From: Phanerochaete sordida
Lineage: Eukaryota; Basidiomycota; Agaricomycetes; Polyporales; Phanerochaetaceae
NCBI GenBank assembly: GCA_019973155.2
Contig: BPQB01000002.1
Span: 992,001-1,056,000, forward strand
Direction: 5' to 3'
Length of the DNA stretch: 64,000 nucleotides
Positions 7,757-61,349 of this stretch are shown piece by piece. A program made the position numbers and the translations under genes. A model generated the notes under the pieces. It searched no databases and was not told the origin of the DNA. It saw only the letters and a list, made by a program, of their open reading frames with translations. Position 1 is the stretch's first letter, and each line of letters opens with the position of its first letter.

Positions 7757-8400
7757 AATGCCTCGAGAGCACGTTCCTTACGAAGGGCGGCGTCGCGCAT
7801 TCTGCCTGCGCAGCGCCGTCGGAATGACGGAACAGCTCTGGAGCTCGCGGGAAGTCATGTCACGCGAACGCTAGGAAAGGCGGCGTCGCGCGCCCTGCAG
7901 TGCCTGCGCGGCGCTGCTGGGGTCACGGAGCGTTGGTACTCGCGAGAAGTCATGCCTCGCGAGCGTTACGAAAGGCGGCGCTGTGCATCCTGCTTGCGCG
8001 CCGCCGCTGGTAATCGGACGTTGCGGTTCGCGGGAAGGGATGCCCCGCGAGCACACCGTTACGAAGGGCGACGTCTTGGGCAGGACGCGCACCGCCGCTG
8101 GTCGCAGCTCGCGGGAATTAATGCTCGCGCAAGCATGCCGCCTCGATGGACGGCATGGACAGCGTGCCTCGCAGGAAGTGATGCTTCGCGAGCACATCGT
8201 TACGAAGGACGGTGTCGCGCGTCCTGCCTACGCAGCCCCGCCGAGGTTATCGAGCATCAGAGCGTTACGAAAGGCGGCGGCAGGCATTCTGCTGCCGCGG
8301 CGCCGCTGGTAATCGAACGTCGCGGGAAGCGGGAAGCGTTGCACCACGAGCACGCCATTACAAAGGGTGTCGTCGCGTGTCATGCCTGCGCGGCGCCGCC
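7757..8400. repeat. GC-rich degenerate tandem repeat, about 90-105 bp unit
   Basis: About seven diverged units repeat the order CTCGCGGGAAGT-ATGCCTCGCGAGC, GTTACGAA(A/G)GGCGGCGTCGCGC, CCTGCCTGCGC, GGCGCCGCTGGTAATCG. Units begin near 7757, 7850, 7950, 8040, 8170, 8260 and 8340. Each contains an internal inverted CTCGCG/CGCGAG pair. Frames across it are open only because the DNA is GC-rich. It looks like a minisatellite-type array. Confidence 0.65.
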
Positions 8401-25230: not shown

Positions 25231-26423
25231 TCATGCATACTTTGCAATGCTTCCAGAGCTGCCACCAGTGCTCGTCTCGCCTTTCGATCCGTATCGCGAA
25301 ACAGAGAGGTCTGTGGCATTAGCGGTGTTGGTCAGGGCCGTGGCGAGGGTTGGTCCCTCCGACAACGACATGGCCTGTGTGGGCTGAACCCAAGCCATCT
25401 CCGAGATCTCGCTTGGTTTCAATGTCTGCTCTGACGAGAGGCCGAGCCCAACGTGGATAATGATCAGGGTCGATGCGATGCCCTGAGATGACAGTGAGAC
25501 CGGCGCCACCCCGCAAAGGAAACATGAGACTTACGTAGGTCTGCGTGGCAATAACGATCATGATGACCGCCGAGGGGTGGTTCATGCCGTAGACGACGAC
25601 AAAGACAAGCTGGACGACGAAGTAGAGAGCGCCGCTCTCGACCATGACGTGAATCGCCTTGCGCGTCGCGCCGTTACCCGTGATCTTGTAGATCTCGCCC
25701 GCGCCGCGCGACATGTACCAGATGCGCCCGATCATGAGCCCCGTCACGAGGACATTCGTGCACAGCGGCAGCACGAAGCTCGCGAGCCCGAGAGGCACGA
25801 TCGAAGGCGAGACGTTCGCGCCCGTCGTGCCCCACACGAGCCGGCCAACGACCGAAGCGCAGACTGAAGATAGGCGAGGGTCAGTGCGCTTCCGAGCGCG
25901 AGGAAGATGGACACTCACTGAGGCCTGCCGTCGATGTCAAGAGAGGGAGGACTGCAACATAGTACTGACAGCCCCAAATAATCCAGCAGCGGTAGATAAG
26001 AATGAGATCTCCGAGAAAGTCGGCGACGGAGACGACGCAGTCGGCAATAAACATATGAAAATCTTCGTTCGCATAGCCCACCACTCCCGACGTGTTCTGT
26101 ACGATGCGATGAGCGTGTGACGAACGCGTGGCCGACGGGCACGACTCACGAGATAGAGATAAAAGTGGTTGAATTCGAGCGCGTAGTGCAGCGTGCAGGC
26201 CACGAAAAGACAGAAGTGGAGCACGACGACGGTGCGGTCGGTGCCGCGCCCCTTCCACTTGTGAAAGAGCACATACAGCGACGCGAGGAACAACACGCAG
26301 TACGCGCCTGGCCGCGCACGCCTCGTCAGCCTCGTGTTCCGATCAGCCGGGCATGCACGCACCATACAGCAGCGACTCGCACGCGAATCCGATAAGCACC
26401 AGAACGTCGATGCTGACCGCCAT
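25231..26423 (-). CDS. Fungal seven-transmembrane protein (7TM-C)
   Basis: Five exons on the minus strand from ATG 26423 (MAVSIDVLVLIGFACESLLYG) to the stop at 25231. The second exon carries AYCVLFLASLYVLFHKWKG and VVVLHFCLFVACTLHYALEF. The third carries DCVVSVADFLGDLILIYRCW and QYYVAVLPLLTSTAGL. The fourth carries LASFVLPLCTNVLVTGLMIG and VESGALYFVVQLVFVVVYGM. The fifth begins GIASTLIIIHVGLGLSSEQ and ends in a Ser/Thr-rich cytosolic tail. The order of helices and intron positions match the three copies at 57.9-63.3 kb, so this is a dispersed member of that family. Function is unknown; topology would allow a receptor or sensor. Confidence 0.85.
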
Positions 26424-27925: not shown

Positions 27926-29712
27926 AGGTTGGGGAGACTGAACAGTTCGAGGGTCAGGGAAGACATGATACAGAACGCATTTCGACCTACGGTGTAAAAT
28001 CACCTAATTGCTATAGAGGAGTGTACCTCTCCGAGCCTATGACTGAGCTTCGTCTAACCCGGTTGTCAATCTTAAGCCGGGCCCTTTCAGCACATGCTGG
28101 CAGTTCTTCTATGCGTTCGTCGACCGGGTTACTATGCGAGCCTCGCTGTGAGCAGGTGCATGCTATACACCCGTTCTAGATGACGTGGGCACACGAGACC
28201 ATGGGGCTCTGGCACCGTATTAAGGCTGTCCGAGCTGTAACCGGGGAGTCATTTGCCATGAAGCAGCACTATAAGATGCGTTGGGAAGCTGTGGCGTAGG
28301 CTAGTCCCAAGCCTGCGGGAACGAGGGAGGCGAAGAGAAGGTGCGGCTGACGACTGAAGCCTCCGAAGCGTGTCCCGATAGGCACCGGTTAGGCTCGTCC
28401 GTCAGGCCCGGACTGAGTCACCGGCCTGCGCACCCTAATACTAGGTGCTTCTGCCGCTTCTGCGTGAGTGTAGAGCCTATAATGGCTTCAATAATAGACA
28501 GCGTGCTGCAGGTAAAGAGGGAGCCGCACATGGACGCCTTGGTTATACTTCCGGGTGCTCTGACGAGCGTAGTCGGACGTGAGAAAGCGTTCATCCGCGC
28601 TCGCTGTAAATGAGGTTGACACTCACAGTCGTTACGCATATAAGGGTCGGTATGGGTAGACGTAGTGTTGCCCTCTCTCGAGCACCCAAACATTTCGAAG
28701 ATGCAGGCTGGTGCTCTTGTAACGCTCTTGCTTATCTGTACCGGCCTGACAATCGCTGCGCCATTACGTGGTCAGAGTTACTATTACTCCAAAAGTTTAT
28801 GGATCACTCACACTCAATCTTAGATGTGCGAGAGCTGAGCCCGTCGTCAGCCGCGGAGAACGCTGTCAAGGACACAACAAGTAGGTGATCATAACTATCG
28901 CGCCGGCGTTAGCAAACGTGCTAACACTATCGATAACAGAGAGAGCTAGCGGCGGCGTACAAATTTGGGGTCGTAGAGCGCATGTCACCATAGAGGAGGT
29001 CTTGAACCGGCTATGATCTATGACAGCTAGCGACACATCGTGGTTTTGTTTCGGGTTCCCTGTCCACATGACCGGACTGGTTAGCACTTTCATCATAGCA
29101 TTATATAGAGCATATTTCGAATCCAGAAAAAAAGAAAAGAGGACAAAAGCAATATTGGTAGCGAGTGACCTTGTCGGCGTGCCGTCAGTACTACTGTCAC
29201 CGTCGCATTGAGAAAACTGCCGGTAGCTCAGGCGCCTTCGCTGGGCTCACGATGACGTAAGCGACGCCACAAAGACTCCCGAGCACCAGGTTTCGATTCC
29301 TGCCATGCTCGTTGTATTTCGCACAACACTTGAAGTGGACGCACCCAAGTTTCCTGCGACCTTCGACTATGTCAGCTCGGTGACATCAATACATGAGCAC
29401 CTGCTTTTCCGACACGCTCCAGTAGCTTGTCCGTCGAACTTCGTGGCAGTATACTGAGCATCACAGGTCGTACTATATGGTCAGAACAAGCCTTCAAAGA
29501 CTTGTTGGTAGCTATTCGTGGCGTACATGTCCATGATATACAAACGTCCGTAGCAACAGGTTTTTCGGCTTTTATACATAAGATCGCGCAGCAGCCCAAG
29601 GAGTCCAGCGTCCAGATACAAAGAGACAACATTAGCAGCGGGGGTCGGCAAGACGGCGAGCTGTCCTGCACTGCAAGACCACAGACACGCGCCGTCGTGA
29701 GAGGAGCGACGC
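27926..29712. other. Intergenic, one tRNA-like unit
   Basis: No supported gene. Short frames at 28341-28890 and 29020-29211 lack motifs. A tRNA-like box A/box B pair at 29222-29312 is listed separately. From about 29400 the sequence would be the 3' flank of the minus-strand repeat gene. Confidence 0.4.
29222..29312 (+). repeat. tRNA-like sequence (pseudo-tRNA or SINE head)
   Basis: A good box A (TAGCTCAGGCG, 29224-29234) is followed about 55 nt later by a near-consensus box B (GGTTTCGATTCC, 29289-29300) with a short pairing T-arm (CAGG/CCTG). The acceptor ends do not pair well. The same word GGTTTCGATTCCT recurs at about 50020, suggesting a small dispersed polymerase III-type family. Confidence 0.4.
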
Positions 29713-32247
29713 TTAGTCGAGGTCCGCAAGGCTGCGGCGGCGGTCGCCGTCACGGTCCCCGTCGCGGTCACCATCGTCGTCACCGCCGTGGCGGCGGCCT
29801 GCAGGATGATGAGACAGAATCAACAGCTGTACGGCGTGGAACGTACGGGTGAGCTCCCGACGGCGGTCGCCGTCGCGGTCACCGTCGCGGTCGCCATCAC
29901 GGTCGCCATCGTCATCACCGCCGTGGCGACGACCTGCCCAGCAGTGAGTGCGCTGCCAAAACTACATAGAGTGGAACTTACGAGTGAGCTCGCGCTTGCG
30001 GTCTCCGTCGCGGTCGCGGTCGCCATCGCGGTCTCCGCCATTGTCATCACCGCCGTGGCGGCGACCTGCTCCAGGATGAGTGCGTTTTCATCATTACACT
30101 GTGTAGAACATACGAGTGAGCTCGCGCTTGCGGTCTCCGTCACGGTCGCGGTCGCCATCGCGGTCACCATCGTCGTCACCGCCGTGGCGGCGGCCTGTAG
30201 GATGATGAGACAGAATCAACAGCTGTACGGCGTGGAACGTACGGGTGAGCTCCCGACGGCGGTCGCCGTCGCGGTCGCCATCGCGGTCTCCGCCGTTGTC
30301 ATCACCGCCGTGGCGGCGACCTGCGCAAGGATGAGTGCACCTTCACCATCATATTGAGTAGAACATACGAGTGAGCTCGCGCTTGCGGTCACCGTCACGA
30401 TCACCATCGCGGTCGCCATCGTCGTCACCGCCGTGGCGGCGGCCTACGCAGAGTTAAGAGCGCGGTCAAAATAGCACGAAGCAGAACTTACGGGTGAGCT
30501 CGCGGCGGCGGTCGCCGTCACGGTCTCCGTCGCGGTCACCACCATTGTCATCACCGCCGTGGCGACGACCTGCCCAGCAATGAGTGCGTTGTCGGACATG
30601 CATGGAGTAAAACTTACGAGTGAGTTCGCGCTTGCGGTCTCCGTCGCGGTCACGGTCTCCGTCGCGATCCCCGCCATTGTCATCACCGCCGTGGCGGCGA
30701 CCTGCTCAAGGATAAGTGCGCTTTCATCGTTGGATTAAGTAGAACATACGAGTGAGCTCGCGCTTGCGGTCTCCGTCACGGTCGCCATCGCGGTCCCCGC
30801 CGTTGTCGTCACCACCGTGGCGGCGGCCTATGGAAGGCTGAGAACACTGTCACAATCGCATAGAGTGGAACGTACGGGTGAGCTCCCGGCGGCGATCGCC
30901 ATCACGGTCACCATCGCGGTCCCCGCCGTTATCATCGCCACCGTGGCGGCGGCCTGCAATAAAGTCAGGCATCAGTCGCATTGGAGGAAGGACGTGCTTA
31001 CGGGTGAGCTCGCGAGGGCCCTTGGTGTTGTTGCGAACCCTGCCGTTGTCGCGGTCCCTGTCGTTATCACCGTCACGATCGCCGTCGCGGTCACCACCAT
31101 TGTCGTCACCGCCATGGCGGCGGCCTACTCTGGAATAAGTGCACCGTCATGACCTCATCGAGGGGGAACTTACGCGTCAGCTCGCGGCGGCGATCTCCGT
31201 CGCGGTCACCGTCGCGGTCGCCGCCGTTATCATCGCCTCCGTGCCTGCGGCCTACAGTAGTGTTAAACGTCAGCCAAAGACGAAGACGAAGCAGCAGATA
31301 CTTACGAGTGAGCTCGCGAGGGCCCTTGGTGTTGCTGCGGTCCCTGTCGTTATCGCGATCCCTGTCATTGTCACCGTCCCGATCGCCGTCGCGGTCGCCG
31401 CCGTTGTCATCACCGCCATGGCGGCGACCTATGTAGCGTGAGCGCGCCGTCATAATCACAGCGAGTGCAACTTACGAGTCAGTTCGCGGCGGCGGTCACC
31501 ATCACGGTCCCCATCGCGGTCCCCGCCGTCATCGTCGCCACCGTGCCTGCGGCCTACAGTAGCGTGAGACGTCGGCGATGGACGAGGAGTCAGGCGCTTA
31601 CGAGTCAGCTCGCGAGGGCCCTTGGTGTTGCTGCGGTCCCTGTCGTTGTCGCGGTCTCGGTCATTATCACCGTCGCGGTCACCGCCACGGTCATCACCGC
31701 CGTGCCTGCGACCTAGAGGGCGATGAGACCGGCGCGTTTCGTACAGAGAGCGGAGACGTACGGGTCAGCTCGCGAGGGCCGCGCGTGTTGCTGCGGTCCC
31801 TGTCGCGGTCGTTGTCGCCGTCCCGATCGCCATCGCGGTCGCCGCCGCGGTCATCGCCACCGTGCCTGCGACCTGTAGAAGTGTTAGGCCTGGCTTGAAT
31901 GAAGCTCAAGGGGACGCTTACGAGTCAGGTCCTCGATGGCGCGAGGGCCTCTCTCACGCTCGTTCTCACGATCGCGGTCGCCATCCCGATCACCACCGCG
32001 GTCGTCGCCACCGTGCCTGCGAGCTACTGGAAGGTTAGCACTGGACGAGGGAGACTAGCTACAGTACGTACCCTCCAGAGCCGCGAGAACCGGCTCGGGG
32101 GCCCTAACGGCCTTGGCTGTTGGAGGATTAGTCAGGTCATGGTCGCACCATCGAAACCATCTGGGAACACATACTGTTATCGGGAACAGGGACTGCGCTG
32201 ACGCAGGCAGCAGCGATAAGAACAAATGCGAGAAGTGCAGAGCGCAT
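29713..32247 (-). CDS. Secreted repeat protein built from 17 duplicated exons; Kex2-processed repeat (KEP) candidate
   Basis: Nineteen exons on the minus strand total exactly 551 codons. Exon 1 (32175-32247) encodes a signal peptide, MRSALLAFVLIAAACVSAVP. Exon 2 (32072-32116) is a short spacer. Exons 3-19 begin at 32023, 31872, 31712, 31553, 31428, 31251, 31124, 30953, 30827, 30701, 30569, 30443, 30320, 30194, 30065, 29933 and 29798. Every internal repeat exon is phase 1 at both ends and 75-123 nt long; introns are about 46-60 nt. Each repeat reads RRHGGDD, then alternating Asp/Arg/Gly (GGDRDGDRDGD), and those before the last finish in LT. From exon 4 on, the codon across each junction is Arg, giving LT-RRR-HGG or a close variant. 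Such dibasic sites suit Kex2 cleavage in the Golgi. The last exon ends SLADLD. The product is probably disordered and highly charged; its role is unknown. Confidence 0.87.
29799..30242 (-). repeat. Recent three-unit block duplication inside the repeat gene
   Basis: The intron at 29799-29846 and the intron at 30195-30242 are identical over more than 40 nt, and the identity runs on into the following exons. The two copies are 396 nt apart, which is three exon-intron units. The array therefore grew in blocks rather than unit by unit, and this step is recent. Confidence 0.75.
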
Positions 32248-33746
32248 TTTGCAGCAGAGGAGAGTACTGTTGGTGGAGATTTGCGGAAGTGCGACGACTT
32301 GGGGGAGTAGGCGAATCCGAGGCTGCTTTTATATATATCGCGACTCATATTGCCCACGCCCGGATGTACTTGCGATGAGAGTGATCAGCAACCCAGCCCA
32401 GACGGACCAGGAACCTGTGCTGGACAGCGTTGCCTTCAAAGGAGGTTAACATCCGTAACTTCCCAGGCCAAGATGATGCTTACCTCCGGCGGGTGCAGCG
32501 AAGCAGGGGAGCGGGGCACGCATTTGCGGTCCGTATCCTTTCGTGGGATCGTCAAGCACGCTGAGTCCGGCTGTTGCACGTCTTCGCCGCGGGAGCTCAG
32601 GCTAAGTGGTACTGCGAACAGCGACAGCAGGCTTGGCCCATGCAACCACGTCAAATAACGCCTCGTCGACGTTATGGAGCGAGCGTGGGGGGAGGCAATT
32701 CTCGAGCCGTCGTGCCCACGAACGTGATCCGCCAGGGGACGTTTGCCTCGACCCGGAAGGGCGCGCATGTTCCTTGTTCCGCGGGGTGCACCCAGGCTTA
32801 GCCGTCGAATAGCCCAAGATGAGAACGCGGGTGCACACCGCAGCACACAGAGAAAAATACGCGCAGGGCGGGACGCCACGATCTTGGCGTGGGCTTGCGC
32901 ATCTGCATATGTGGATGTCAGCGGGTGCAGTGGACAACGCACGTCAAGACACGCTCACCAAGCGGTGCAAGGTGGGAGCTGCGCGCAGCCTTCAGAAGCG
33001 AACAGGCACGTTGCATTGTCAGAGGGCTGCTTGGCATCGCTTTATTTAGAGACAAATTGTCGTTTGTGAGATGAAGCTGCGGACTGGTCGTGCTGTGATG
33101 CAGTCTTACCGCAGTCGTAGGCATCAACTGAGCGCACTGAGGGCTTATTCGTAGGCGTACATGGGTCCATGTGCGACGACTCTAAACAGTGACTGATGCG
33201 TCGTCTGCCGGTTGACAGAAAGACCAAGCCGACGGATAGGATGGACTTGGTTCCAGCTCTTCGGTGAGCGCATCGAGAAAATTCTAACATGCGCTTAAGT
33301 GGCCGTCAGATCCGGACGCTTTTTCTCATGCTCAGGTGTCCTGCAACACCGAAGTGAATATCAGAGAACATCGCCAGGACCCAACCTTCTCACCTTGGCA
33401 TTTCCGCAGCTTCGGTGCTTCCCAGGCTTTTGGAGGCATTGCTTCCGAGGGGAAGGTAACGATCGCACTAAGGGTTCTGACCAACTGCTGGATATGGAGT
33501 GTATGGATCGGGTGGAGTAACGACTGCAGCCAAGAGCAGTCCAAGGAATGGATCCCCTCGAGCAGCAGCGCAGCTGCCCCTCACATCCAGCATTCATAGC
33601 CGTAAGTCGTGAGGAAGGGGGACGAACTCAGTCGCCTTCTCATGAGCAGCGAGGGCGGCGTGACAAGGCGCTGCGAGAGAAGTGCGTCTCAAACGCAAGT
33701 CAGGCTGAGGGAGACTCAACGTCGTCTAGAATTCGCTGCTACCAAC
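32248..33746. other. Intergenic, no supported gene
   Basis: It contains the promoter of the repeat gene at its left end. The many short frames on both strands (32436-33120) have no family motif. The right end is the 3' flank of the flavin monooxygenase gene. Confidence 0.45.
32327..32338 (-). promoter_or_regulatory. TATA box of the repeat gene
   Basis: On the minus strand a TATATATAAAA word lies about 80 nt before the ATG at 32247, and the start context is CAAAATG. A strong TATA box fits a regulated, highly expressed secreted product. Confidence 0.6.
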
Positions 33747-50580: not shown

Positions 50581-52274
50581 ATGGCTCTCCCACTGCCCAA
50601 GGCCGAACTCATAGGAACTGTGCTCGAGACAGTTGGATTTGGTGCGTGTGCAAGTTCGAATGGGAGAACGTGCCGCACTCTGACCTTTCCTGAAGGCGCG
50701 TATGTCATCGTCTTCATAGAGTGCCTCCGGCTCCTGTGCACTCGCCATCGCGCGGGACGCGACATGCGCTATCTTATCGCCACCGCCTCCGTCATATTTG
50801 CGCTTGCCGCCGTTGTACGCTTGCCACACGTCTCGCCCGCCTTCGCTAGCCTAACTAGTGCAGCATCTGCTCATAGACATAGTCCGCGTCATGGACGCGT
50901 TTACACGCCACATGGACGTGCCCAACAGTGCCGCGCAATTCTACGGGACGATCACCACGCCGCTGAACCTCGCGAAGAGCGCGACCTACGTCGCCATCAC
51001 GCTCGTGCTCGACGCGCTCATCGTGTACCGGACGTACGTCGTCTGGGGCAAGCGGCTCCTGGTGGTCGTCCTGCCCAGCGTGCTCTTCGTCGCAGACATT
51101 GGCCTCTCGGCGTGGGCGACGTGGAGCATCACGGAGGTGCGCCCTGGGGACGATGTCATGCTCGCGAACGTCACGCTACGCGTCAAATACTTCTACTCGG
51201 TGACGCTGGCCCTGAACCTCTTCTGCACGCGTACGTCTGCCGTTTTCTTCACCGTATGCTGTCTGTTGAATCTCTGCTATTGCAGTCGCGATAGCAGGGC
51301 GCATATGGTCTGTCCACCGCGGCGTCACCGCGCGCTCCATCTCGGGCGTCCGCTTCACAGGCGTCATCGCAGTCATCCTCGAGTCTGGTACGCCCGCACG
51401 CCCCACACCCTCTGTCCACGTCTTACAGATTACCGTTCACAGCGGCGATCTACTCCGTGCTCCTCGTTCTCCTCATCGCGACGAGCGCCGTGGGCAGCAC
51501 CGCGATGTTCGTCGTGCTGAACTCCATCTCGCCTATCATCGTACGCAGCCCTCCTCCCTCTTGCCGATGACGTCCTCCAACTCACCGCACGCGCAGGGCA
51601 TGGTGTTCTCCGCGGTCATCGTGCGCGCCTCGCGCGAGGTGCACGCCGACACATACATGACGACGCGCATGTCCTTCGCGCCGCCGAGCGCGCCGAGCTT
51701 CACAGACCCCTTCGCCACCCGCCGCAGCAGCGCGCCCGCGCCATGGCTGGCACACCCCGACGACGTCGCGAGCAAGCACAGCAGCCCGCGCCGCGCGAGC
51801 GACTGGCGGCGCGACTGGCGGTGCAGCGAGCGCCGCGGGAGCGACTACCAGCAGAGCGAGTACTGGCAGAGCAACTGGGGGCAGGACGAGTGGCGGCGGG
51901 GCAGCGATGCGCGGCAGAGCGACCGCACGGCGCGCGCGTCGCTGCTGTCGCTCAAGCCCTCGCGCGCGTCGCGCCGCTCGATGCCGTGGGTGCTCCCGCC
52001 GCTCGACGCGCTCGAGCCCGAGCCCGAGCCGCCGCTGCCTTGTGCCGAGGTGTGCGACTCGCCGTGGGACGCGGCGCGGCGAGTGTCGCTGCCGTCCAGA
52101 GGGCCGTCGCGAGGCCCGTCGCGCATACAGGTGCGCGTGCCGACACCCGCGGAGAGCGTGCATGTGAGAGTCGAGATGCCCGTCGGTTGCGACGAGGAGG
52201 AGATCGAGATGGAGGAGGTGTGGGGGCAGGAGGAGAAGCTGGAGCAAAAGTATGGCGGCGAATCTTTGGTCTGA
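50581..52274 (+). CDS. Fungal seven-transmembrane protein with long charged tail (7TM-B)
   Basis: Six exons (50581-50641, 50696-50814, 50864-51230, 51286-51387, 51443-51540, 51597-52274) make 475 codons. Helices are visible at VIVFIECLRLLC, IATASVIFALAAVV, YVAITLVLDALIVYRTYVVW, LLVVVLPSVLFVADIGL, VKYFYSVTLALNLFC, VIAVILESAAIYSVLLVLLI and STAMFVVLNSISPII. The loop TRHMDVPNSAAQFY matches the gene at 4405-5937 closely, so the two are paralogues. The tail of about 210 residues is Arg/Ser/Trp-rich (RASDWRRDWRCSERR) with acidic ends. Two introns present in 7TM-A (after the LI of DALI, and after 'ADIG') are missing here. It converges on the adenylating-enzyme gene. Function is unknown. Confidence 0.87.
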
Positions 52275-57658: not shown

Positions 57659-57872
57659 ATGTTGTCGTCGGTCGTTTGCTTGTTTGGTTTTTCCAGTCTT
57701 TGCGGTCACTAATACTGGTCATATGTATTATAGATTGACGGTCTCCCTGCCTGATTGTATGATACATATGGACGTATTGAACAAATGGTGCAATTCGGGT
57801 TGAGGGCATGGTGCGACGATTTCGCTCCCTCCACAAAATGGTACAAGAACATCAAAACATCGTTCGTTCAAT

Positions 57873-59182
57873 TCATTCGCGTCCAACTGCCATACCCTCA
57901 TCAGCCATGACCATCTCCTCCGCGAATTCGACTTACTTTCGACGATCATATCGAACGGGTGTTCTTCGTTAGAGACGGTCCGCTGGATGTTCTCCTGCCG
58001 GACGGCCATGCCCATCTTGCGTCCGTAAGTCTCGTACACGTCGAAAGGGCGTTGTACGTTGTACTCGACGGTGCCGCCGGCCGCCCCGATGACTGGACCT
58101 TGGCGTCGCATCCCAGCGGTACTGCTGAAGGACATGCGTGACGCGACGGCCGCACCCTTTCCCTGCTCGCTGGAGAGGCCGAGGCCGATGTGTATGATGA
58201 TCAATGTCGACGCGATGCCCTGCGGCATTCGGATACATATGCGGTCAGTGGCTGTCGCTGCGCTAGCGTGTACAGGACGCACATAGACCTGCACGACAAT
58301 CGCGATCATGAGCATCGCGCTGTCGCTGCGCGCACAAAACACGACGACGAAGACGAGCTGCACGAGGAAGTAGAGCAGGCCGCTCTCGACGACCACATGC
58401 ATCGCCTTGCGTGTCATGCTCGCGGTCCCCACGGCACGGCTGACCCACCAGAGCCGCACAAGGATCAGCCCTGTGGTCAGAACGTTGGTGCAGAGCGGCA
58501 GGATGTACGCCGCACGCCCTAGTGGCATAATAGCTGCGGAGGCTTTAGGGGTATCGTTTTCCCAGGTGAGGTTGCCGGTCAGGTTCCAGACAAGACAGAT
58601 AGCGGTAGCTGCGCAGACTGCAGGTCAATTTAACGAGATTTTGACAAAAAGAGGATAAATTGAACGCACGTAGAGCCGCGATGGAAGTGAGGATGGGGGC
58701 CACCGCGACCAAATAATTACGGTCCCAGATGATCCAGCAGCGATACATGAGGATAAGGCCCCCGATGAAATCCGCGACCGAAACGACGAAGGAGGAGATG
58801 TCGGTGCGGTGGTTGATGCTACCAAAACCAGGAACATCGCGCGCAGTCTAATGCACTGTAAGCTGTATGATTATCGCAGTCAAGGAGTGAGGGACGTACC
58901 ATGTAAATTAAGAAGCGACGAAATTCGAGGGCGAAATGCAAGGTACAAGCAATGTAAAGCAGACAGTGGAGGATGATTATGACTTTGCTGAAGCTTCGCG
59001 ACTTGGTCATGGATAAAATGAGGTAGACCGATGCTATGAACAGGAGGCAGTATGCGCCTGAGGAAACGGTCGGGTCGCGCATTTACCATCGGAACATAGT
59101 GACAACCACTAACGCACTCACCGTAGAGGAATGCTTCACAAACAAACCCTACGAGGGCCAATATGTCGAGACCGACAGCCAT
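57873..59182 (-). CDS. Fungal seven-transmembrane protein (7TM-D)
   Basis: Six exons on the minus strand from ATG 59182 (MAVGLDILALVGFVCEAFLY). They give AYCLLFIASVYLILSMTKSR, VIIILHCLLYIACTLHFALE, VVSVADFIGGLILMYRCWII, YLVAVAPILTSIAAL, AAYILPLCTNVLTTGLILVR, VESGLLYFLVQLVFVVVF and GIASTLIIIHIGLGLSSEQ. The polar tail contains FDVYETYGRKMGM. The last exon is tiny (57873-57886): the tail splices at GTAAGTC and ends IGRE. The intact intron and a matching one in the next gene support this. It is the first of three tandem paralogues and is nearest to 7TM-E in sequence. Function is unknown. Confidence 0.85.
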
Positions 59183-60048: not shown

Positions 60049-61349
60049 TCATCCGCGCCGAACTGTTATCAAGGACTCATCAGCCATGACCACCTTTCCT
60101 CGGCCAACCTGACTTACTGTCGATGACCATATCGCGTGGGTACTCGTCCGGCACAGTCCACGGGAAATTCTCGCGCCTGCCAGTCATACCCGTCTTGCGT
60201 CCGTAAGTATCGTACACATTGAATGAGCATTGTCCATCGAGCTCGATGATGCTGCCGGTAACTGGGAGTATTGGGCCTCGTCGTCTAGCGTCAGAGCCGC
60301 TGCTGAAAGACATAGGCGACGTAACAGTCACGCCTTTGTCCTGCTCGCTGGACAGGCCAAAGCCGATATGTATGATGATCAAGGTTGACGCAATGCCCTG
60401 TTGCATTCGGCCGCACATACGGTGAGGACGTTCGGAAGAGGAAGCGTGTGAAGGACGCACATAGGTCTGCACGACAACAGCGATCATGAACATCGCGGCC
60501 TCGTTCTTCATGCAGTAGACGATGACAAAGATGAGCTGCACGAGAAAGTAGAGCAGGCCGCTCTCGATAACAACGTGCATCGCACGGCGTGCCGCACTCG
60601 CCGTGCCTACCGCTCGGCTGACCCACCAAAGCCGTAAAAGGATCTTTCCTGTGACGAGCATGTTCGTGCACAGTGGAAGGATGAAGATCGCCTTTCCGAG
60701 TGGAAGAAGTGCTGCTGGAGCCATGGAGGCATTGTCACTCCAGGAGAGATGACCAGTCAGACCCCAGACGAGATATGTTGCCGTGGAGGAGCAGACTGGA
60801 AGAGACATCAGCGAAAACCATGCTGAGAGAGTGAGCCGCGTACTGAGAGCCGCAGTGGACGTGAGAAAAGGGATCACAACGACCCAGGGGTTGCGATCCC
60901 AAATAATCCAGCATCGGTACACGAGAATCAGGTTTCCAATGAAATCTGCGATTGAGACGACGCAGCCGGCGATCAATATGTGGTTATCAATGCCGCCAAA
61001 ATCGGCGACATCGTGCGCAGTCTAGCGTGCTGTGAGCCATAGAATCATCCTAGTCGGCGAGGGAAGTATATACCGTGTAGATTAAAAATCGGTTAAAGTC
61101 GAGGGCGAAATGAAGCGTGCAAGCGGCGAAGAGCAGGCAGTGAAGGATAATTATGACTTTGCTGAAGCTTCGCGACCTCGACATGGACAGAATCAGGGAA
61201 ACCGATGCGATGAAGAAGAGAGAGTATGCGCCTATAAAAGGGTCAAGATTCATCCATGACTGGAACACTGACAGCCACAAGCACTCACCATAGAGGAACG
61301 CTTCACAAACGAACCCTATTAGATCGAGTGTGTCGAGACCAACGGCCAT
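60049..61349 (-). CDS. Fungal seven-transmembrane protein (7TM-E)
   Basis: Six exons from ATG 61349 (MAVGLDTLDLIGFVCEAFLY) to TGA at 60049. It is highly similar to 7TM-D exon by exon. Helices are YSLFFIASVSLILSMSRSRS, VIIILHCLLFAACTLHFALD, CVVSIADFIGNLILVYRCWI, PWVVVIPFLTSTAAL, AIFILPLCTNMLVTGKILLR, VIESGLLYFLVQLIFVIVYC and GIASTLIIIHIGFGLSSEQ. The tail keeps FNVYDTYGRKTGMTGRRENF. The final exon is again a short one reached through a GTAAGTC donor, ending IRRG. It contains the full set of helices and no frame break. Confidence 0.85.

Follow-up and report, generated by a model that had tools for sequence, protein, structure and literature searches.

A candidate Kex2-processed repeat protein gene with one repeat per exon in Phanerochaete sordida

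The minus strand of the window (the whole stretch of 64,000 nucleotides of Phanerochaete sordida DNA analysed) carries, at 32247–29713, a 19-exon gene model of 551 codons, and the 551-aa product is quite probably a secreted polyprotein precursor acting as a Kex2-processed repeat protein (KEP). P. sordida is a white-rot fungus of the Polyporales. The sequence itself shows the exon-intron structure and the reading frame, and it shows that the repeats, together with the Arg triplets at their junctions, have long been under purifying selection. We regard the locus as a well-supported, old, constrained and single-copy putative precursor gene whose exon layout is unusual and for which a KEP function is likely.

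Gene structure

The signal peptide is encoded by exon 1 and a short pro-region by exon 2, followed by one repeat in each of exons 3 to 19, giving 17 repeats in two classes (5 long and 12 short), with phase 1 at every internal boundary. The repeat exons are 75–123 nt, and the 18 introns are 45–58 nt overall and 47–54 nt where they lie between repeats. The features are as follows.

Exon 1, 32175..32247, minus strand: signal peptide MRSALLAFVLIAAACVSA, then VPVPDN; hydropathy peak of 3.0 over 11 residues, cleavage site placed by eye
Exon 2, 32072..32116, minus strand: spacer or pro-region KAVRAPEPVLAALE
Exon 3, 31922..32026, minus strand: first repeat, long and divergent, starting ARRHGGDD and ending EDLT; excluded from divergence counts
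Exon 4, 31762..31872, minus strand: long repeat ending GPRELT
Exon 5, 31602..31712, minus strand: long repeat
Exon 6, 31476..31553, minus strand: short repeat ending RRRELT
Exon 7, 31306..31428, minus strand: long repeat
Exon 8, 31174..31251, minus strand: short repeat
Exon 9, 31002..31124, minus strand: long repeat
Exon 10, 30876..30953, minus strand: short repeat
Exon 11, 30750..30827, minus strand: short repeat ending RKRELT
Exon 12, 30618..30701, minus strand: short repeat
Exon 13, 30492..30569, minus strand: short repeat
Exon 14, 30369..30443, minus strand: short repeat
Exon 15, 30243..30320, minus strand: short repeat, followed by an intron 98% identical to intron 18
Exon 16, 30114..30194, minus strand: short repeat
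Exon 17, 29982..30065, minus strand: short repeat
Exon 18, 29847..29933, minus strand: short repeat
Exon 19, 29713..29798, minus strand: last repeat, with the tail SLADLD and the stop codon; excluded from divergence counts
TATA-like box TATATATAAAAG, 32326..32337, minus strand: begins 90 nt before the ATG

All 18 introns start with GTANG and end with YAG, and a branch-like CTNA is found near the acceptor at a constant distance from it (C in 14, T in 15 and A in 15 of 16). At three acceptors, those of exons 4, 5 and 6, another AG follows 7 nt further downstream, and splicing there would shift the frame. The last exonic base at a donor is usually G. Here the exonic side ends in C at all 15 donors shown, so the splice consensus has no power to explain the Arg residues at the junctions. 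The model was obtained by applying the repeated junction throughout; unguided parses with a score rewarding coding length gave other counts, namely 3 exons and later 13. The 13-exon parse, which kept introns 5, 7, 9, 12, 15 and 18 as coding, was rejected because these six share splice signals and divergence with the remaining introns. A pattern spanning the whole junction had 13 matches in the 40.8-Mb genome, all of them inside the gene (13 of the 16 repeat-repeat junctions), and the reversed-pattern control had 0. On the plus strand, a 218-codon stop-free stretch at 29701–30357 runs antisense to the last exons and is probably a by-product of repeat composition.

A first-pass annotation of the region had arrived at the same coordinates, 19 exons, phase 1-1 symmetry and 551 codons, all of which were reproduced. 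Its architecture was thus borne out, including the Arg codon split by an intron at repeat-repeat boundaries (16 of 16) and the start RRHGGDD, which it had given for nearly every repeat and which was found in all 17 (exon 3 reading ARRHGGDD). It was silent on the strand, which is minus, as well as on the second basic site before ELT or the tail, the long and short classes, and the age and constraint of the repeats.

Basic junctions and predicted peptides

RRR is present at all 16 repeat-repeat junctions. The three junction codons are Arg in 48 of 48 cases and vary synonymously at all three places (CGT 8 and CGC 8; CGC 14 and CGT 2; CGC 12 and AGG 4, thus including AGG versus CGC), with His as the next residue in 16 of 16. 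A second basic site lies ahead of ELT in 11 of the 17 repeats and ahead of the C-terminal tail in 1 more. Among the 15 units formed by exons 4 to 18, the residue ahead of ELT is always Arg, itself preceded by Lys (5), Arg (6) or Pro (4). The 5 long repeats lack a dibasic second site, having GPR there (exon 3 being IEDLT-ended). Basic runs of two or more residues number 29, with no excess over composition (shuffle mean 32); an excess over shuffles is seen solely for runs of three (28 vs 9.5). Composition as the origin of the basic sites was considered and set aside; it stands on the number of runs, and it is solely the triple runs and the codon-level conservation that counter it.

In-silico cutting after each basic run, a slight departure from the published script, gave 30 fragments. 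Besides the N-terminal part and the SLADLD tail, these are 12 short cores, 5 long ones and 11 copies of ELT. The 12 predicted short cores are 16–20 aa in length and comprise 6 distinct sequences, one of which occurs 5 times (example, HGGDDNGGDRDGDRDGD); the 5 predicted longer peptides have 31–38 aa. After residue 18 the charge of the precursor is nearly balanced (Asp 146 and Glu 21 vs Arg 146 and Lys 9), and the short cores are predicted to carry a net charge of -5 to -7 without His, because their basic tails are lost.

We infer the following course of processing. In the secretory pathway, kexin would cut after RRR at each repeat junction and also after (K/R)R ahead of ELT, so that in the short repeats ELT would have a cut on either side. 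The basic tails would then be trimmed by a Kex1-type carboxypeptidase, yielding 12 short peptides (16–20 aa), 5 longer ones (31–38 aa), 11 ELT spacers and one tail. Each Arg within the short cores is isolated between Asp residues, and the cores should resist kexin. With one repeat corresponding to one phase-1 exon and the junction Arg codon split as C|GN, gain or loss of an exon-intron unit would keep the frame and rebuild the cutting site, and the array probably expanded through the copying of blocks that comprised one or several exons. As a guess, the peptides might act as signals outside the cell or in biotic interaction, roles that have been put forward for other KEP peptides; another guess is that an acidic peptide whose N-terminal His is free binds cations.

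The properties by which KEPs are recognized point in the same direction. The product has a signal peptide (11-residue mean hydropathy of up to 3.0 and an A-x-A-like site by eye), 17 similar repeats where at least 3 are asked for, dibasic kexin sites flanking the repeats, and a length of 551 aa, below the filter of 800 aa used elsewhere (PMC9769878); a kexin gene is present in the same genome. The KEP reading of the first-pass annotation is therefore supported by the architecture, the codon-level conservation of the basic junctions and the kexin gene, the cutting itself being predicted.

Conservation of the junctions would also be compatible with an uncut repeat protein and does not alone prove cutting. 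In this alternative, to which we assign a rather low probability, the product is a secreted disordered polyampholyte, one long Asp/Arg/Gly chain in which the basic clusters are charge pattern, and it would serve as a wall, matrix or mineral-binding protein. The precursor does have the composition of a disordered chain (mean hydropathy 0.215 vs a boundary of 0.421), with near-equal acidic and basic counts and with basic runs no more numerous than composition predicts. However, adjacent basic residues are confined to the repeat junctions and to the position before ELT, Lys and Arg interchange at these sites, triple runs are in excess as described above, and a secreted protein bearing RRR would meet kexin in the Golgi.

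Exon skipping and intron retention

The first-pass annotation had proposed that exon skipping would change the number of released peptides. It seems to us unlikely that the precursor is controlled by splicing in this way, the exons being peptide cassettes and skipping setting the number or kind of acidic peptides released; in the same improbable scheme, the kexin site would be rebuilt at every splice join because donor and acceptor each carry part of the Arg codon. That regulated exon-number isoforms are the purpose of this same precursor is likewise doubtful. The phase is 1 at all internal boundaries, and joins of a repeat donor with a downstream repeat acceptor give Arg in 136 of 136 combinations, but phase and Arg retention both follow from the duplication of one exon-intron unit, and regulation is not needed. 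Introns as short as these are normally spliced by intron definition, with retention as the commoner variant, which argues against such isoforms. Tuning of peptide number by exon skipping is therefore unsupported, although the joins would be in frame and keep Arg. As for designed intron retention, 6 of the 12 repeat introns with a length of 3n are stop-free, approximately what chance gives (about half for 16 random codons), and this idea was dropped.

Divergence and history of the repeats

Divergence was counted among the 15 units of exons 4–18, leaving aside exon 3, which is divergent, and exon 19, the terminal one. Between units, differences were counted at 2297 of the 5009 intron sites compared (45.9%) and at 9.7, 5.2 and 44.2% of codon positions 1, 2 and 3, respectively; drift at third positions is thus as great as in introns, with the amino acids held. 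In the 20 codon columns common to the 15 units, variation was found at position 3 in 20, at position 1 in 5 and at position 2 in 3 (hypergeometric p 7e-10, a guide value only, since the units have a common history). The dN/dS ratio is 0.13 in the proposed frame and at least 1.9 in both shifted sense frames and two of the three antisense frames; the remaining antisense frame, whose third positions coincide with those of the sense frame, has a value of 0.21. Mean identity is 0.80–0.84 in exon edges versus 0.40–0.44 in intron interiors beyond the splice signals. Near-saturated introns and third positions, set against conserved first and second positions, indicate that the repeats are old and that strong purifying selection acts on a single reading frame with sharply defined exon edges, a pattern which supports splicing, strand and frame jointly. 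It is very improbable that the array is a non-coding minisatellite or a plus-strand gene and the minus-strand exons an accident of a G+C-rich repeat, for although stop-free stretches on the plus strand reach 218 codons, one antisense frame has a low dN/dS and no annotated protein was matched, that low ratio follows automatically from the common third positions, divergence changes sharply at minus-strand splice sites, donor, branch and acceptor signals are all on the minus strand, and this strand fits a signal-peptide exon and a TATA-like box.

Introns 5, 7 and 9 are alike (56–73%), as are introns 6, 8 and 10 (62–72%), and the exons preceding them alternate between long and short, which suggests that a two-exon block was probably copied early. 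The short exons appear to have multiplied later, introns 15 and 18 being 98% identical. Since the place and phase of the introns are identical throughout, the array is more readily explained by duplication of an exon plus its intron than by repeated intron gain.

Relatives and genomic context

Neither the 551-aa model (among the candidates listed) nor a 121-aa contiguous frame over exons 7–8 matched anything at E 0.001 in the protein collection searched. This collection includes proteins of P. sordida, P. carnosa and Phlebiopsis gigantea, and the frame of a neighbouring flavin monooxygenase shares 100% identity with a P. sordida protein over 439 aa. The absence of a match despite the presence of P. 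sordida proteins suggests that the locus is unannotated in the collection or annotated outside the searched length range; a missing annotation may reflect weak expression of the gene. Pfam gave 0 families for the precursor. No second copy was found in the genome, the 18 protein-level matches all lying in the gene, and the RHGGDD pattern had 14 matches in the genome, 12 in the gene and single ones on contigs C7 and C10 which were taken as chance. In a sample of 20 × 10 kb (200 kb, about 0.5% of the genome), no similar array with at least 3 copies was seen; the sample contained 14 tandem-repeat rows, one with a period of at least 60 (2.1 copies), and is too small to judge uniqueness of the layout.

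Elsewhere in the window, the longest-period array outside the peptide-precursor gene is a 95-nt tandem repeat of 1.8 copies at 7803–7980. Three minus-strand frames at 25319–25936, 57728–58624 and 60080–61021 encode related hydrophobic proteins of multi-pass appearance, the first two being compared with the third at identities of 48% (119 aa) and 60% (235 aa); they have no Pfam match at 0.01. A fourth frame (50855–51520, plus strand) is weakly similar to these three.

With regard to processing enzymes, the Kex1 family consists of serine carboxypeptidases, and serine carboxypeptidase (S10) had 58 exon-level matches in the genome. S10 matches were clustered on contigs C2, C77, C98 and C123. For UstYa, 15 exon-level matches were found, the nearest being about 37 kb from the gene and outside the window (G000:C2:1061702-1062304); several occur in close pairs (C10, C23, C26, C50 and C74). 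For kexin, an exon-by-exon search, by which others may be missed, detected one P_proprotein (P-domain) match, on C5, in a frame whose best PDB match is Kexin 2id4_A (E 4.8e-51). C. cinerea and other agaricomycetes are stated to have three kex2 genes (PMC9769878).

Comparison with known systems

The closest likeness is to fungal KEPs, described as having a signal peptide, similar repeats parted by basic kexin sites, and more than one kind of repeat (PMC6339444, PMC7329392, PMC9769878). KEPs are reported to be widespread (7878 in 1345 of 1461 strains), and 2560 of them are, like the protein studied here, without a homologue found (PMC7329392). Each repeat here has its own exon and the Arg codon of the site is split by an intron, features for which we met no KEP description in these texts; the sequence type also differs from the KEPs named in the main texts. 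The words exon and intron are absent from the main texts of PMC7329392 and PMC6339444, and the main text of PMC9769878 uses "intron" once, about cDNA cloning. The first-pass annotation had called one exon per KEP repeat seemingly undescribed, and we met no description in the titles and abstract openings of the literature searched, although known KEP genes may have this layout unremarked. The STE13 dipeptides of alpha-pheromone-like KEPs (XA/XP after the kexin site) do not occur here, fragments after basic runs starting with HG (17), EL (11) or SL (1).

Rep1 of Ustilago maydis is likewise a secreted basidiomycete repeat precursor yielding peptides of tens of residues (PMC6339444); it differs in that its peptides, of 37 aa, are reported to control hyphal wall properties, and the likeness drawn here is at the level of description. 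Dikaritin (ustiloxin) precursors, also named in the first-pass annotation, similarly have secreted repeats with kexin sites. Dikaritin precursors carry a Tyr in the core and have UstYa genes nearby. This comparison fails, as the product lacks Tyr, Trp, Phe and Cys beyond residue 41, its repeats thus being without Tyr, and no UstYa (DUF3328) gene adjoins the locus.

Two further systems share some features. SP7-like effectors of arbuscular mycorrhizal fungi have a signal peptide followed by hydrophilic imperfect repeats, but with one conserved intron before the first repeat, in contrast to the 18 introns here, one between each pair of repeats; they are reported only in Glomeromycotina, in a text that does not mention Kex2 (PMC11333574). 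Schistosome micro-exon genes also encode secreted proteins from many short exons, but are described from animals, with introns of up to 5 kb (PMC10526429) versus 45–58 nt here.

Implications

KEP surveys have been built on predicted proteomes, and gene predictors can overlook or shorten a gene of this type, with 17 repeat exons of 75–123 nt separated by introns of 47–54 nt. Should genes like it be common, the number of peptide precursors in fungi is underestimated. The locus further allows a test of why repeat and exon borders coincide, its near-saturated introns next to fixed peptides providing a neutral reference inside a single gene. An exon that brings its own cutting site would be a self-contained unit of peptide evolution.
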